Of a stretch of DNA of 64,000 bases, positions 33,340 to 39,543 are shown one piece after another. The stretch is from a bacterium (GTDB lineage Bacteria; Armatimonadota; Fimbriimonadia; Fimbriimonadales; Fimbriimonadaceae). A program made the translations under genes and the position numbers. The stretch lies in assembly GCA_013823945.1 (NCBI GenBank), contig PNMZ01000002.1, positions 62,001 through 126,000 on the forward strand. Direction: 5' to 3'. The notes beneath the pieces are model-generated. The model made no database searches. It worked only from the letters and a program-made list of their open reading frames with translations, and was not told the DNA's origin. Within the stretch, counting starts at the first letter, position 1. Each line of letters opens with the position of its first letter.

Positions 33340-34080
33340 ATGGCAAAGATTTCAGTTCAGCTTTACACGTTGCGGAGTTTGATGGAGAAGGATTTTTGGG
33401 GGACTTTGACGGGACTTAGTCAGGCTGGGTTTAAGAATGTAGAGATGGCGGGTTTGGGTGGTTTCACGGCTGAGGAGGTTCGAACTGGCCTGGCAGAACG
33501 GGGAATGAAGGCTCATTCGATGCACGTTGGCTTTGAGCGAGTGCGTGATGACATGGATGCGGTTGTTGCCGAAGCCCACACACTCGGGTGCGAGTTCGTT
33601 GTTGTTCCATGGATCGACCCGAAAAAATTTGAGAAGCAATGGATTGGAGTTGCTCAATCTTTGAGTGGTTTGGCGGATCGGTTGAGGGGTCATGACTTGT
33701 GGCTGGGATATCACAATCATGCATTTGAGTTTGAACTACAGGATGGGCGACCGGGATTTGAGATTTTTTGGGAGAACGCGTGTGAGAATTTGATTGCCGA
33801 GCTTGATTTATTTTGGGTGAAGAAGGGAGGGCATGATCCGGTGGACTGGATGACGAGGCTCGCGAAGAGATTGCGACTGGCTCATTACAAGGATATGGAT
33901 TTAAATGGGGAATTCACGGAGATTGGAAGCGGAACGCTAGATTGGCGATCCATTGTCCCTGTGAGTCGTGAAGTTAAATTGGATTGGGCGGTGATCGAAA
34001 ATGATGATCCAAAAGGTGATCCACTTGCAGCGGTGATTCAGAGCCGTAATTACTTGTTGGGATTGGGCCTGAAAGACTGA
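33340..34080 (+). CDS. Sugar phosphate isomerase/epimerase family protein
   Basis: The 246-residue TIM-barrel protein resembles xylose isomerase-like AP-endonuclease-2 superfamily enzymes. It has VQLYTLR at the first strand, KNVEMAG, WLGYHNHAFEF, ELDLFWVKKGGHDP and HYKDMD; conserved Glu, His and Asp residues would bind a divalent metal. Proteins of this type epimerise or isomerise sugars or inositols. The stop overlaps the start of the HAD gene by one base, so both may act in one sugar pathway (inference). Start is the ATG at 33340. Confidence 0.85.
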   Translation: MAKISVQLYTLRSLMEKDFWGTLTGLSQAGFKNVEMAGLGGFTAEEVRTGLAERGMKAHSMHVGFERVRDDMDAVVAEAHTLGCEFVVVPWIDPKKFEKQWIGVAQSLSGLADRLRGHDLWLGYHNHAFEFELQDGRPGFEIFWENACENLIAELDLFWVKKGGHDPVDWMTRLAKRLRLAHYKDMDLNGEFTEIGSGTLDWRSIVPVSREVKLDWAVIENDDPKGDPLAAVIQSRNYLLGLGLKD

Positions 34081-34703
34081 TGTCCATCCGGCTCGTTGTT
34101 TTTGATTTGGGCGGAGTGATGATTCGTATTCGCCATGCTTGGTCAGAAATTTTGGCTGAGATGGATCTGCGCTTGCCGGATGGGTTCACCTCCGATCGAT
34201 TGGCGGATCATCGCGCTTTGTCGGCATATCAAAACGGGGAAATTGGGGAAGAAGATTTCCTGATAGCGTTGTCCAACGAATTTGGATTTGGAGTTGACCA
34301 GGTTCGTGAAGCTCATCAGCTGATTCTGCGGGAAGATTATCCTGGCGCGGCTGAATTGGTGAATGACCTGCGGAAATCGGGAATCAAGGTCGTTTGTTTG
34401 AGTAATACAAACGAGCTCCATTTTCGCGAATTTTTTTCGGGTCGGTTTCCAGTTTGCGAGGCTTTCGATGAACTTTTGGCGTCGCACCGACTTGGCTTAA
34501 GCAAGCCTGATCCAGCGATTTATGCGCTTGTTGAGGATCGATACGGTTTTCAAGGTACTGAGATTATTTTCTTTGATGACAATTCTTCGAATATTGAAGC
34601 AGCAATTGCACGGAACTGGTCAGGAGTATTGATTGATCCCGAAAGTGATCCGCCTTTTGTCATTCGACAAGAACTGGTTCGGCGGTCAGTTCTTGAACGT
34701 TGA
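34080..34703 (+). CDS. HAD-family hydrolase (YihX-like)
   Basis: The 207-residue phosphatase-like protein has motif I FDLGGVM with the nucleophile Asp9, motif II LSNTNELH, Lys in LSKPDPAIY, and motif IV IIFFDDNSSNIEAA. The DLGG form of motif I is typical for HAD-IA proteins such as the glucose-1-phosphatase YihX. It is coupled to the isomerase-like gene (TGATG overlap), so the pair may process a sugar phosphate. Its 3' end overlaps the convergent Mpv17-like gene by 44 bases. Confidence 0.9.
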   Translation: MSIRLVVFDLGGVMIRIRHAWSEILAEMDLRLPDGFTSDRLADHRALSAYQNGEIGEEDFLIALSNEFGFGVDQVREAHQLILREDYPGAAELVNDLRKSGIKVVCLSNTNELHFREFFSGRFPVCEAFDELLASHRLGLSKPDPAIYALVEDRYGFQGTEIIFFDDNSSNIEAAIARNWSGVLIDPESDPPFVIRQELVRRSVLER

Positions 34704-35373
34704 ACACGAAAACAATTGTCCAAGCAGCCTCGCAAAGCATTGCGATTGGGAACTGGAGTTTGAGGGGAAGGACATAGATTGAACTCATTACGGGGAACCA
34801 GAAAATCCAGCAGAGGATGACTCCAGGAAGTACGTTTTCTCGGTAGCTAGAGGGGATTATGACTTCTTTCCAGGCGGATATCTGAAAAGCTCGCTTTCTC
34901 CAGATTAGCATTCCGGTGGCGAACGGAATGCTAAGAAATGGGCTGAAGACGAGCATATCGAACAAGACCTTTTTTAAGACCGTAGCGGGATCATTAGAAG
35001 CTGAGAAGAGCGAGACTTGAACGAAATACAGTAGATAGACCAGGAAACCGATGATTGAGTAGACGATTCCGACATAGGTTGCGGCGACTGCCCAAGAATT
35101 GTCGAGTTTCTTCACTTTGCCAGTCAAAATTTTTGCGATTTCCGGGAGAACACCTCCGGCGACAAAGCCGGCGAGGAGTACGGCGATGATTCCGCCCTGT
35201 TCTCTCCACTGGCTTACTTGATCAAGTGCTCTAGTTGCGGTTGGGATGTTGAAGTACGAATAGACGAGTAGAGCGTTGGCTAGTTGGATAACGAGCATGG
35301 GGGGCCACGTTGCTCTGATTGCCGTGAGCACGGTTGAGAATGCGGTCTTCTGCGAATGAGGGGTTTGTTTCAT
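34660..35373 (-). CDS. Mpv17/PMP22-like membrane protein, copy 1
   Basis: The 237-residue protein is taken to start at the ATG at 35373, which overlaps the upstream gene by four bases (ATGA); an in-frame ORF to 35523 would overlap the neighbour by 150 bases. It has about five or six hydrophobic segments. The central VLKKVLFDMLVFSPF and the C-terminal FWFPVMSSIYVLPLKLQF...AAWTIVF follow the LKK.L.DQ..F.P and WP..Q..NFYLVP....V...WN pattern of the eukaryotic Mpv17/PMP22 family. Function of bacterial members is unknown. It is the downstream half of a tandem pair. Confidence 0.65.
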   Translation of the reverse strand: MKQTPHSQKTAFSTVLTAIRATWPPMLVIQLANALLVYSYFNIPTATRALDQVSQWREQGGIIAVLLAGFVAGGVLPEIAKILTGKVKKLDNSWAVAATYVGIVYSIIGFLVYLLYFVQVSLFSASNDPATVLKKVLFDMLVFSPFLSIPFATGMLIWRKRAFQISAWKEVIIPSSYRENVLPGVILCWIFWFPVMSSIYVLPLKLQFPIAMLCEAAWTIVFVFNVQELTAEPVLVE

Positions 35374-36077
35374 TCTGGCGGGGGATTCTCGATGTTTGGA
35401 GACTGAACCATAAAGACGAAGAGGAGGCTCCATGCGGCTTGACAGAATGCGCTGACGACGAATTGGATCCTTTCGGGAAGCCAGTACATGCCACTTGTAA
35501 TGGGGCCCCAATATGACCAGCACATGATGAGGGCGGGGAAAACGTTAGCCTTGTATTGATCAGGTTTGATGACTTGAGACCAAGCTGAAAACTGGAACTT
35601 AGCTTGTCTCCATTTAAAAAGTCCGACACCGAGGGGGATGCTGAGAAATGGGCTGAAAATTAACTGGTCGAAGAGGACCTTTTTGAGGACGGTGGGAAAG
35701 TCCCCGGTGTCTCCGAACAAGATTACTTGAAATTTGAACATGTAGTAGACGAGAATTCCGAGAGCAGAGTAGACGATTCCCGTGTAGAGAACGAGTTTTA
35801 GCCACTCTCCGTCATATTTCGGCTTTCGACCGACGATGAATTTTGCGACTTCAGGGATGAGGGCGCCCGCGATAAAACTGGACCCGAGAATAAATGCGAA
35901 TAGATTTTGGTCTTTGAAATCAGATGCGCGGTCGAGGAAGTCAGTTATTGCAGGAATTTGAAAGTAGCCGATCACGGTGATGATGCAGACAAATTGGACA
36001 AGGAGCATGGGTGGCCACATTGCGCGAAGAGAATCGATGCCGGGCCGGAAATATTCTTTGATAGGAGTTTTTTGCAT
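35370..36077 (-). CDS. Mpv17/PMP22-like membrane protein, copy 2
   Basis: The 235-residue protein is the paralog of the gene at 34660-35373; both begin with a short soluble part then RAMWPPMLLVQ / RATWPPMLVIQ. Motifs VLKKVLFDQLIFSPFLSIP and SYWGPITSGMYWLPERIQFVVSAFCQAAW match the Mpv17 pattern closely, including the LKK.L.DQ core. The pair are translationally coupled and divergent from the M14 peptidase gene. Eukaryotic members sit in inner membranes of mitochondria or peroxisomes and may form channels; role here is not known. Confidence 0.68.
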   Translation of the reverse strand: MQKTPIKEYFRPGIDSLRAMWPPMLLVQFVCIITVIGYFQIPAITDFLDRASDFKDQNLFAFILGSSFIAGALIPEVAKFIVGRKPKYDGEWLKLVLYTGIVYSALGILVYYMFKFQVILFGDTGDFPTVLKKVLFDQLIFSPFLSIPLGVGLFKWRQAKFQFSAWSQVIKPDQYKANVFPALIMCWSYWGPITSGMYWLPERIQFVVSAFCQAAWSLLFVFMVQSPNIENPPPE

Positions 36078-36112: not shown

Positions 36113-38542
36113 ATGGGGCTTCGCTCTGGATTGGTTTTGGTCGGGTTGGGGATTTTCGGATTGGGCTTATCCCAAGATATTTCGGTTTGGGATTTTAAGC
36201 AAGGCAACTATTCCTTGTCGGTTCCCCGACCTTTTGATCCGGTGGGGTTCAGAGTTGGTACTCGGCATATAACGAGTAGTGAGGTGGTGGAGTATATGAA
36301 AGCCGTTGATCTGGCTAGCGATCGAGTCTCTGTGGGTGATTACGGTCGCAGTTTTGATAATCGTGAGATGCCGTTCGCAGTGGTTTCGTCATCGGAAAAT
36401 TTGAGGAATATAGGGAAGATTGTTGTAGAAAACCAGAAGAATGTTTTTGAAGCGGATCGGGTTACGGATGCTGACCTTGAGAAGAAACCAGTTATTGTTT
36501 GGGTCGGTTGCGGAGTCCACGGCAATGAGGCTAGCGGGGTTGAAGCGGGTTTGATGACGCTTTATCATTTGGCGGCAGATCGGTCGGGGGAGACGGAAAA
36601 GATGCTTCAGCAAATGGTTGTCATCATCGCGCCGAATTACAATCCGGACGGACGGGATCGGTTTGCGAATTGGGTGAATAGTCAGCGGGGAGCTTTGGCT
36701 CTGCCCGATGGACAGGATCGGGAGCATTCGGAGCCTTGGCCTGGGGGGCGGACGAACAAGTATTGGTTTGATTTGAACCGCGATTGGTTTCCTTTGACCC
36801 AAGTGGAGTCATGGACAAGACATAAGTTTTTTACAGCATATCGCCCGCAACTGGTGTTGGATTACCATGAGCAGGGAGGCGAGAACTACTTCTTCCAGCC
36901 GGGAGTTCAGAGCCGAGTGAACCGATTTACTCCGAAACGAAATCAAGAGTTGACATTTGATTTTGCTCGCTACTATGCAAAGGAGTTGGAGAAGGTCGGC
37001 GAGGCTTACTTCACCGAGCAACGGTATGACGATTTTTATATTGGAAAGGGGTCAACATATCCGGATGTCACGGGTTCGGTCGGGATTTTGTTTGAACAGG
37101 CTTCGAGCCGAGCTTTGCGGCGCGAAACTCCGTTGGGCGAGCTAACCTTTGGGAACACGATTCGAAATCAAGTTGTGACGGCGTTGGCCTCTTTGGAAGC
37201 AGCTCGGGACATGCGTATGACCCTTTTGAAGTATCAGCGCGATTTCTTCCGAGACGTTCCGAGTACGGGTGCGGCGTTTGAGGTTGAGAAGGATGAAGCG
37301 GGGGCAAAGCTTGTTAATCTGCTTTTGCAGCACGAGGTTAGGGTGGAGGATCGCGGAAAGTGGGTAGTTCCGGTTGATCAGCCTCTTGGTCGCCTTGTTC
37401 AGGCGATGTTTGAAGCGCAGAAGGAGTTTGATGACACGGTTTTTTACGACATCAGCGCATGGAGCTTGCAATATGTGACGGAAGCAAAAGTCAAGAAAAT
37501 CACTCTGCCGGACACCCAAATGGCGATGAAAGTGACGGTTGTTTACAAACCGGTTTCATTCTCAGTTGGTGGTTATGTGAAAGCAGAGAATCCGGTTGGA
37601 TTTATCTTGAGGAAAGGGACAACGGGATTTCATGGGGCGGTTTTTGACGCGATGGAGAGTGGTCGAGTGGCTTATTTTGCGACGCGGGCGATTGGGTCGG
37701 CTGCACCGGGCGATGTTTTCATTGCCGGAGGAAGTGAAGACGAGAGCTATTTTGCGGCACTTGCTCGGGATAGGAAGGTTAAGGTTGAGGCAGTTCCGGG
37801 ACAGACGGGCGAGATTGTGAGTTGGGGCGGAAATGCGGTGACGCGGTTGCCGAAAGCTCGCATAGCGCTCCTAGTTGGTGAAGGAGTTGATTCTAACAAT
37901 GCGGGTGAAGTGTGGTGGATGCTGGATCGAGAGCTTGGGATACCGGTGGCGTTACTTGATGCATCGCGGGTTTCGACATTGGATTTGGCTCGTTACTCTG
38001 CAATATTGGTTACGGGCGGGCGGTATCCGGCCGACGCAGGAGAAGCACTCGCGACGTATGCTCGGGGCGGCGGTACGGTCGTAGCGACGGCCAGCGGGGC
38101 GGTCTGGGCAAATGGCACGCCTTTGGGAGGATTGAAATCGGCTTCGGTTTCGGCGGACTATTCGGGGATGAGCTTTGGTCAGCTTCAGGAGGCACGACAA
38201 GTGGATTTGGCTCCGGGGGCAATATTGGCGGTCGATTACGATTTGACTCATCCATTGATGTTTGGGGTTGATTCTCCAGCGGCTTTTCGGGAGGGTGCTT
38301 CTTTCTGGGAGGTTCCGGTGGAGTCAGGGGTAGTTGTCGGTCGGTATCGGTCTGAAGCGGTTTTGTCGGGCTTCGTTGGTCCGGGGGTTGCGGAGCTTGC
38401 GGGTGGGAAAGTAGCGATTTTGGCAAAACGTCTTGGGTCCGGAAGGGTGGTTTTGTTTGCGGATAATCCAAATTTTCGCGGTTTTATGACAGCTCAGCGA
38501 CGAATCTGGCTCAATTCAATTTTCTTTGGACGGGCGTTTTGA
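36113..38542 (+). CDS. Secreted M14-family zinc carboxypeptidase
   Basis: The 809-residue protein has a signal peptide (about 1-21) and an M14 peptidase domain at about 55-370. The zinc ligands are in GVHGNEASG, with a later histidine in LDYHEQG, and the catalytic Glu in SVGILFEQAS. NYNPDGR follows the usual pattern. Residues 530-809 form a large C-terminal region with a class I glutamine amidotransferase-like or ThuA-like flavour (ILVTGGRYP, ARGGGTVVATASG), probably a noncatalytic accessory domain. Such proteins trim peptides outside the cell. It stands alone between the Mpv17 pair and a prepilin gene. Confidence 0.87.
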   Translation: MGLRSGLVLVGLGIFGLGLSQDISVWDFKQGNYSLSVPRPFDPVGFRVGTRHITSSEVVEYMKAVDLASDRVSVGDYGRSFDNREMPFAVVSSSENLRNIGKIVVENQKNVFEADRVTDADLEKKPVIVWVGCGVHGNEASGVEAGLMTLYHLAADRSGETEKMLQQMVVIIAPNYNPDGRDRFANWVNSQRGALALPDGQDREHSEPWPGGRTNKYWFDLNRDWFPLTQVESWTRHKFFTAYRPQLVLDYHEQGGENYFFQPGVQSRVNRFTPKRNQELTFDFARYYAKELEKVGEAYFTEQRYDDFYIGKGSTYPDVTGSVGILFEQASSRALRRETPLGELTFGNTIRNQVVTALASLEAARDMRMTLLKYQRDFFRDVPSTGAAFEVEKDEAGAKLVNLLLQHEVRVEDRGKWVVPVDQPLGRLVQAMFEAQKEFDDTVFYDISAWSLQYVTEAKVKKITLPDTQMAMKVTVVYKPVSFSVGGYVKAENPVGFILRKGTTGFHGAVFDAMESGRVAYFATRAIGSAAPGDVFIAGGSEDESYFAALARDRKVKVEAVPGQTGEIVSWGGNAVTRLPKARIALLVGEGVDSNNAGEVWWMLDRELGIPVALLDASRVSTLDLARYSAILVTGGRYPADAGEALATYARGGGTVVATASGAVWANGTPLGGLKSASVSADYSGMSFGQLQEARQVDLAPGAILAVDYDLTHPLMFGVDSPAAFREGASFWEVPVESGVVVGRYRSEAVLSGFVGPGVAELAGGKVAILAKRLGSGRVVLFADNPNFRGFMTAQRRIWLNSIFFGRAF

Positions 38543-38590: not shown

Positions 38591-38619
38591 TTAACGTCAG
38601 ACATGATTTGAGCTATCAT
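38591..38619 (+). promoter_or_regulatory. Candidate sigma70 promoter for the 38680 prepilin
   Basis: TTAACG (38591-38596) and TATCAT (38614-38619) are separated by 17 bases, about 60 bases upstream of the prepilin start. Both hexamers deviate from consensus, so the call rests on spacing and position. Confidence 0.4.
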
Positions 38620-38679
38620 GCTTTTTCGGCGTGCGGCTCGAAATGGGCCAGCTGCCTGTTTCCCTGGAGAAATCCTCGA

Positions 38680-39543
38680 ATGAAGCGAACTGCATTTACC
38701 CTCATTGAACTCTTGGTCGTTATCGCGATTATCGCGATTTTGGCCGCGATCCTCTTCCCCGTTTTTGCTCAGGCGAAAGATGCGGCTAAGAAGACCCAAT
38801 CGATCAGCAACTTGAAGCAAACCGGTACATCGGTTGCGATTTACAATGCTGACTACGACGATGTGATGCCACCGAGTGCTTACTTCGTTGGCCTTGGTAC
38901 TTTGAACCAAGTCCATTCCGTTTACGATGCATTGCAGCCGTACATGAAGAACAAGCAAATTTTGGTCAGTCCGTCCGACGGTCAAGGTCAAAGCTGGAGG
39001 GATCGTCTGGTTGCTCTTGGTTTGAATCCGATGCCGAATGGTATTGAGCGTGCGAGCTACATTCCGAACCTTGGTTTGTTCGGCGAGAATCTTTGTGGAT
39101 TCAAGACCGCAAAGACTCCAGTCGTGAGCGCAACTGCTCTGGAAACCCAAACAGACACCATCATGTTCTTTGATGGCTACATTCGACGAGCGATTCCAAC
39201 TTTGGACTACTTCACGTTCATGGGTATGGCGCGACACGCGGATGGCTTGGTCATTAACTTCGCTGATACTCACGCAAAGTTTTTCCGTGCAACTGCTGTG
39301 AACGGCATTGCTAAGGATATTCCGACACCGACGGGTAGCCGTGCTCCGGTTTACTACAGCTGGCGACGCGATGCCGTTAACTGCGGATCATCCGCACTTT
39401 GTAAGACCGAAGGAACGTTGCAAACCGTTCCTATCGCTCCAACTGGCTTTACGCTTGACGGTGTGACGGGCCCCTACAACGACTTGCACGGTATTCCGGG
39501 CAGCAACATTACTGACTCCGAAGACACGGCTTCTTGCCCGTAA
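38680..39543 (+). CDS. Prepilin-type protein, DUF1559-like
   Basis: The 287-residue protein starts at the ATG at 38680, preceded by GGAG; a longer in-frame start at 38608 gives a cysteine-rich extension and is rejected. The N-terminus MKRTAFTLIELLVVIAI with Ala at -1 leads to IIAILAAILFPVFAQAK, the type abundant in Armatimonadota and Planctomycetes. Mature parts show SISNLKQTGTSVAIYNADYDDVMPPS and a HADGLVINFADTHAKF end, as in proteins with an H-x-x-x-N-x-x-F-x-D-G-H/T motif. It may be a pseudopilin-like surface protein. Not clustered with the pilin cassettes. A strong terminator follows. Confidence 0.85.
   Translation: MKRTAFTLIELLVVIAIIAILAAILFPVFAQAKDAAKKTQSISNLKQTGTSVAIYNADYDDVMPPSAYFVGLGTLNQVHSVYDALQPYMKNKQILVSPSDGQGQSWRDRLVALGLNPMPNGIERASYIPNLGLFGENLCGFKTAKTPVVSATALETQTDTIMFFDGYIRRAIPTLDYFTFMGMARHADGLVINFADTHAKFFRATAVNGIAKDIPTPTGSRAPVYYSWRRDAVNCGSSALCKTEGTLQTVPIAPTGFTLDGVTGPYNDLHGIPGSNITDSEDTASCP

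Follow-up and report, generated by a model that had tools for sequence, protein, structure and literature searches.

Two adjacent genes in the 64,000-nucleotide stretch of DNA analysed here (the window) encode members of an unlabelled multi-helix membrane protein family of approximately 230 aa, which is found in Fimbriimonadaceae-type Armatimonadota and in Verrucomicrobiota. Based on profile and motif comparisons, this family appears to be homologous to the eukaryotic Mpv17/PMP22 proteins along nearly the whole length of Mpv17, from which it differs by an extra helix at the N-terminus; we assign this relationship a probability of about 80%. Mutations in MPV17 cause a mitochondrial DNA depletion disease, and we know of no cargo of this protein. 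Bacterial relatives that retain a near-invariant Lys/Asp/Pro core, in which the Pro is a human disease site, would allow the function and origin of Mpv17 to be studied by comparison with prokaryotes, and they are simple proteins to purify. The Mpv17 family is described as ubiquitous in eukaryotes (PMC7318627), and no description of bacterial Mpv17 relatives was found among the matches listed in the literature searched.

Copy A (P0002; 35370-36077, minus strand) encodes an Mpv17-like membrane protein of 235 aa in which the K-x3-D-Q motif reads DQ, as identified from its ORF, translation and family alignment. Copy B (P0001; 34660-35373, minus strand), identified from its ORF, translation and alignment to copy A, encodes a tandem paralogue of 237 aa whose motif has DM instead. 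The two proteins share 45% amino acid identity over 232 residues (E 1e-75). The original prediction placed two genes at 34660-36077, and these coordinates are borne out, with both genes co-oriented on the minus strand. The TGA stop codon of copy A and the ATG start codon of copy B overlap in an ATGA sequence (35370..35373, minus strand), by which the two copies are likely translationally coupled. Because the ATG of copy B at 35373 overlaps the copy A stop codon, the longer GTG-initiated ORF (34660-35523) is not needed. The common VLKKVLFD motif was also recovered, both copies reading VLKKVLFD-[QM]-[LV]-[IV]-FSPF. In copy A, the motif TVLKKVLFDQLIFSPF (residues 129-144; 35646..35693, minus strand) contains K133, D137 and P143, which are aligned with R94, D98 and P104 of yeast Sym1. 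The C-terminal motif CWSYWGP...Y.LP...QF.......AAW runs from C186 and W187 to W216 of copy A, as read from the sequence and the alignment (35430..35522, minus strand). Both copies end with W.P.....Y.LP...QF.......AAW as had been described, except that the spacing given earlier as W..P......Y.LP was slightly off; copy A reads W187-S-Y-W190-G-P192-x5-Y198-W-L-P201.

A protein search identified the gene in 24 of 61 genomes (18 of 45 genera), all of the window's own GTDB family, and showed it to be absent from all 24 genomes searched that represent other families within the order. The A1 profile located the gene in 64 of 291 Armatimonadota genomes, of which 60 belong to the same family and four to two other families of the phylum. 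The nearest relatives include Armatimonadetes bacterium Uphvl-Ar1, whose copy A is 96% identical, and Fimbriimonadaceae bacterium ACE_ARM7/8. A scan of genome contigs retrieved 21 loci, nine of which are of Verrucomicrobiota/Kiritimatiellota type (L078-L086). A 36-row profile retrieved the family from 76 of 387 Verrucomicrobiota genomes sampled evenly across the phylum; like the preceding counts, this concerns Armatimonadota and Verrucomicrobiota and says nothing about absence from other phyla.

A set of 76 sequences was compiled from matches spanning at least 190 profile positions after removal of duplicates (143 ORFs were matched, many of them representing one gene refetched). In the alignment of these sequences, D137 is conserved in 76/76, K133 in 73/76 and P143 in 67/76, followed by W190 (74/76), P192 (73/76), Y198 (74/76), P201 (74/76) and W216 (69/76). 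The family is characterized by the near-invariant signature K-x3-D-x5-P / W..W.P / Y..P / W. Q138 is kept in 31 of 35 Verrucomicrobiota rows compared with 11 of 41 Armatimonadota rows. Copy A has Q138 and the full [KR]-x3-D-Q-x4-P motif; copy B has M at this position and matches the motif in part. At position 111, both window proteins have Tyr in place of the Asp of the family VD.FY motif, which is present in 31/35 Verrucomicrobiota and 25/41 Armatimonadota rows.

The direct eukaryotic comparison was made with one sequence, yeast Sym1. Using hhalign, the 36-sequence profile (A3) aligned collinearly with Sym1, covering Sym1 53-179 locally (score 44.6, P 2.6e-6). The highest scores among the controls were 22.3 for 300 full shuffles, 24.1 for 300 local 15-aa shuffles and 15.5 for the reversed sequence. 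The 76-sequence profile gave a score of 41.9, compared with 21.2 at most for 45 unrelated ORFs with at least three hydrophobic segments, and in global mode, on which the N-terminal part of the alignment rests, Sym1 1-187 is aligned with family positions 43-231. The corresponding 76-sequence HMM matched Sym1 with 26.1 bits in hmmsearch (single-sequence E 3.2e-10). In viral contigs, neither the A2 profile nor a DNA pattern for WPxxQxxNF nor Sym1 identified any relatives; plasmids gave no Sym1-like match.

In the hhalign alignment of the 36-row profile, K133/D137/P143 fall over R94/D98/P104 of Sym1, W187 and W190 over both Trp of Sym1 NWAVW, Y198 over the F of NF, and W216 over Sym1 W171. The motif NWxxWPxxQxxNF, including its Gln and Asn, is seen in Sym1 and is what we take to be the Mpv17_PMP22 signature. 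Sym1 P104 corresponds to human P98, which is reported as the site of the pathogenic P98L in patients (PMC6166979), and another report gives MPV17 P98L and also K88E (PMC7379809). The bacterial family thus resembles the Mpv17/PMP22 proteins (Sym1, MPV17, MPV17L2, PXMP2 and Pex37) in its collinear alignment, in [KR]-x3-D-x5-P in register, in both Trp of NWxxW, in the aromatic residue and Pro following this motif, and in the C-terminal Trp. However, it lacks the Gln and Asn of WPxxQxxNF, and the corresponding columns 194 and 197 hold V/L/M/T/I. In 73/76 members, the Pro is shifted by one residue relative to Sym1, lying two residues after the Trp instead of one; three verrucomicrobial members (L115-L117) keep WP like Mpv17 and read FWP. 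The bacterial proteins also have about 43 extra N-terminal residues, forming one helix, and unlike PF04117 members, nearly all of them fall below the Pfam cut-off. Because of the extra helix and the missing Gln and Asn, we classified the family as a divergent bacterial sister branch and not as a member of PF04117. The Mpv17 motif pattern proposed for the pair is accordingly retained for the Lys/Asp/Pro residues, both Trp and the C-terminal Trp, and not for Gln and Asn.

Mpv17_PMP22 corresponds to Pfam PF04117, with a gathering cut-off of 27 bits. P0001 matches this family below the cut-off (15.2 bits, E 0.023), P0002 has no match, and a genome-wide search found that 0 of 61 armatimonad genomes exceed the cut-off. 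At E<=1, PF04117 also matches 7 of 14 control genomes, so single weak matches mean nothing alone. Across the family, 13 of 30 armatimonad members match PF04117 at E<=1 (best 1.4e-4), and the runner-up Pfam family matches 3 of 30. Of the 24 armatimonad genomes that carry the family gene, 16 have their best genome-wide PF04117 match on it, and in the other eight the best match is elsewhere or there is none; off-gene sub-threshold matches in armatimonad genomes include those in G005 (0.018) and G011 (0.025). For the verrucomicrobial genomes reached by the loci, the best match is on the family gene in 8 of 9. A PF04117 match at E<=0.01 was found in 48 of 387 Verrucomicrobiota genomes versus 0 of 14 control genomes, and 29 of these 48 matches are family genes found independently by the 36-row profile. 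A six-frame search yielded four verrucomicrobial matches over the cut-off (all family genes), of which L148 passes in an hmmscan recheck with 29.5 bits and the other three score 23.8-24.3 bits (27.0-27.5 in the six-frame search). ETR1_N and histone matches of single members were rejected as chance.

These results bear on the possibility that an unrelated bacterial multi-helix membrane family has converged with Mpv17 on short W/P/Y-rich helix motifs, as the failure of both window proteins to pass the Pfam cut-off and the missing Gln and Asn of WPxxQxxNF might suggest. Membrane proteins do give spurious low matches, such as DUF1129 for P0001 alone (E 0.0016), which was rejected as chance. However, DUF1129 is matched by only 1 of 30 members against the 13 matched by PF04117, and the Sym1 match is collinear over ~120-175 columns with a score about twice the best obtained with 600 shuffles and with the 45 unrelated membrane ORFs. 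Convergence is therefore improbable and already largely refuted. The lack of a significant Mpv17_PMP22 match, which had been named as evidence against the original prediction, holds for the window proteins singly and is overturned at the family level by L148, the 13 matching members and the Sym1 profile comparison. The predicted relation to Mpv17 is supported as a remote homology by the Sym1 scores, which exceed those of shuffled sequences and unrelated membrane ORFs, and by the family-level PF04117 matches.

The remaining 19 of the 48 verrucomicrobial PF04117 matches are not family genes. Fifteen of them (L134-L147 and L153; loci of 1.6-1.7 kb) were aligned and represent one conserved membrane family, here called subfamily II, with the consensus WGSFIPKTIxFFWIPAHTxTFxLPxxYRVLMSAxLSLALGFILT. 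Subfamily II is collinear with the first family (hhalign P 5.7e-5, probability 66%) but lacks the K-x3-D motif and has a different C-terminus (FWIPAHTxTFxLPxxYRVL). The three subfamily II members that were scanned matched PF04117 (19.5-22.2 bits) and no other Pfam family at E<=1, and the comparison of subfamily II with Sym1 gave no direct signal.

The AlphaFold model of copy A, built with 26 sequences, has a pLDDT of 88.1 and a pTM of 0.84 and contains six long helices and one short helix (residues 6-40, 42-81, 90-121, 127-158, 163-170, 172-197 and 202-225). Judging from the alignments, the Mpv17 body would correspond to the part of the family from about the second helix onward. Fold searches of BFVD and the PDB with this model gave no match at E<=0.001. 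No Mpv17 match was obtained in these searches, and phmmer with Sym1 found no solved Mpv17-family chain in the PDB; the missing Mpv17 match carries no weight as evidence. A PDB profile search gave only chance matches, and the top VIA match (7za2_A, Z 7.4, 2% identity) was rejected as being at a level common for helical bundles.

It is highly improbable that the family should be grouped with the EI24/CysZ (sulfate permease-like) proteins instead of with Mpv17. CysZ provided the best near-full-length PDB matches (Z 5.2-5.8, 170-176 residues aligned, rmsd 6.2-6.5; Foldseek TM about 0.3), and an EI24-named viral protein ranked first in BFVD (TM 0.37, E 0.28). Solved CysZ proteins (6d79, 6d9z and 3tx3) are likewise small all-helical membrane proteins of similar length with a weak likeness in helix arrangement. 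However, all of these matches have E > 0.1, TM < 0.4 and Z values common for helical bundles, CysZ/EI24 has no sequence signal with the family, and no EI24 family occurs among the Pfam matches of 30 members at E<=1.

The phylogenetic tree was built from bacterial members only. All 12 sequences from the window's genus fall into a single clade (100/99), indicating that the duplication happened within that genus lineage. Copy A followed by copy B on one strand occurs in five of the eight genomes of the genus searched, two have a single copy and one has none. The best tree does not unite the B copies, although a single B clade is not rejected (p-AU 0.13). Twelve alignment columns are fixed differently between five A and five B copies, e.g., DQ versus DM and CQAAW versus CEAAW. 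Between the window and locus L066, the NG86 dN/dS is about 0.04 for copy A (0.021/0.532) and about 0.12 for copy B (0.072/0.601), showing that purifying selection acts on both copies. The retention of A and B, each with its own signature, would fit two partners of one complex. Elsewhere, a verrucomicrobial genome (G461, contig C54:215426-216965) carries two adjoining family genes on one strand, apparently an independent tandem duplication. Another genome (G348, contig C117:100578-102066, and C71 and C79) has six family matches, several of them short neighbouring fragments, which looks like expansion with decay.

The pair had been proposed as a duplicated bacterial branch that could inform the origin of Mpv17. 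Placed among other bacterial members, it proves to be a within-genus duplication, and the two phyla are split at 100/99. A duplication within its own genus says nothing about Mpv17 origin; the two-phylum family as a whole might. One speculative scenario sees in the family a prokaryotic sister group of eukaryotic Mpv17 that has survived to the present; Mpv17 would descend from an old bacterial six-helix inner-membrane pore of Verrucomicrobiota/Armatimonadota type, which lost its first helix and gained Gln and Asn on entering eukaryotes. In this full form we consider the scenario unlikely. If the family is indeed a bacterial sister group, the Mpv17 mechanism could be solved with a bacterial protein, and with the A/B pair, which would serve as a hetero-oligomer occurring in nature. 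The opposite direction, in which Mpv17 relatives were transferred from eukaryotes into bacteria, would accord with the patchy distribution in one armatimonad family and four genomes of two others, with none in the 24 genomes of the order's other families, and in 76 of the 387 Verrucomicrobiota genomes. Transfer is nevertheless rather improbable, given the long branches and the strong support (100/99) for a single separation of the two phyla in the tree of bacterial sequences. Moreover, the bacterial members have the extra N-terminal stretch in common and lack the eukaryotic Gln and Asn, which speaks for an old bacterial family.

Considering their relatives, we tentatively propose that oligomers of the family proteins act as pores for small solutes or ions. 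Pore formation is reported for Sym1, MPV17 and PXMP2 (PMC6166979, PMC12493167), although evidence of transporter activity is said to be lacking for MPV17 (PMC12493167). The bacterial proteins would be located in the cytoplasmic membrane, where they may oligomerize as Sym1/Mpv17/PXMP2 do, creating a small channel or pore through which small solutes or ions could pass; the invariant Lys/Asp pair would then lie at the pore or in the packing core. Such a pore would tune solute balance or membrane potential. In the window's genus, the oligomer probably contains both copy A and copy B. Some eukaryotic members, such as Pex37, are described as acting in organelle fission and segregation (PMC7318627), and the pair could by analogy have a structural or assembly role in the membrane, with Pex37/WSC-like shaping, instead of forming channels. 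This role is unlikely, since bacteria lack these organelles and no neighbour points to division or envelope shaping.

Among the loci compared, no neighbourhood common across genera points to a function of the family; the neighbours across genera are unrelated housekeeping genes, so the functional proposal of a pore rests on the relatives. In the window, an M14 carboxypeptidase-like gene (36113-38542) lies upstream of the pair and is divergent, and a HAD-type hydrolase gene (34080-34703) lies downstream, is convergent and overlaps the end of copy B. These two neighbours are common to the window, L066, L067, L068 and L069, i.e., within the genus. A TilS-like gene directly precedes the family gene in five Chthoniobacter-type loci (L080, L082, L083, L084 and L086), one of which was scanned by Pfam and the other four grouped with it by blastp. 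The gene before TilS in these loci presumably encodes SerRS (seryl-tRNA synthetase), as recognized from its N-terminal sequence. MgtE follows the family gene in two loci, and CTP synthase, Na:alanine symporter, and aminotransferase or CofH-type genes adjoin it elsewhere. Further along the window (38608-39543, plus strand), a gene encodes a protein whose N-terminal sequence AFTLIELLVVIAIIAILAAILFPVFAQAK was read by eye as a prepilin-type signal.
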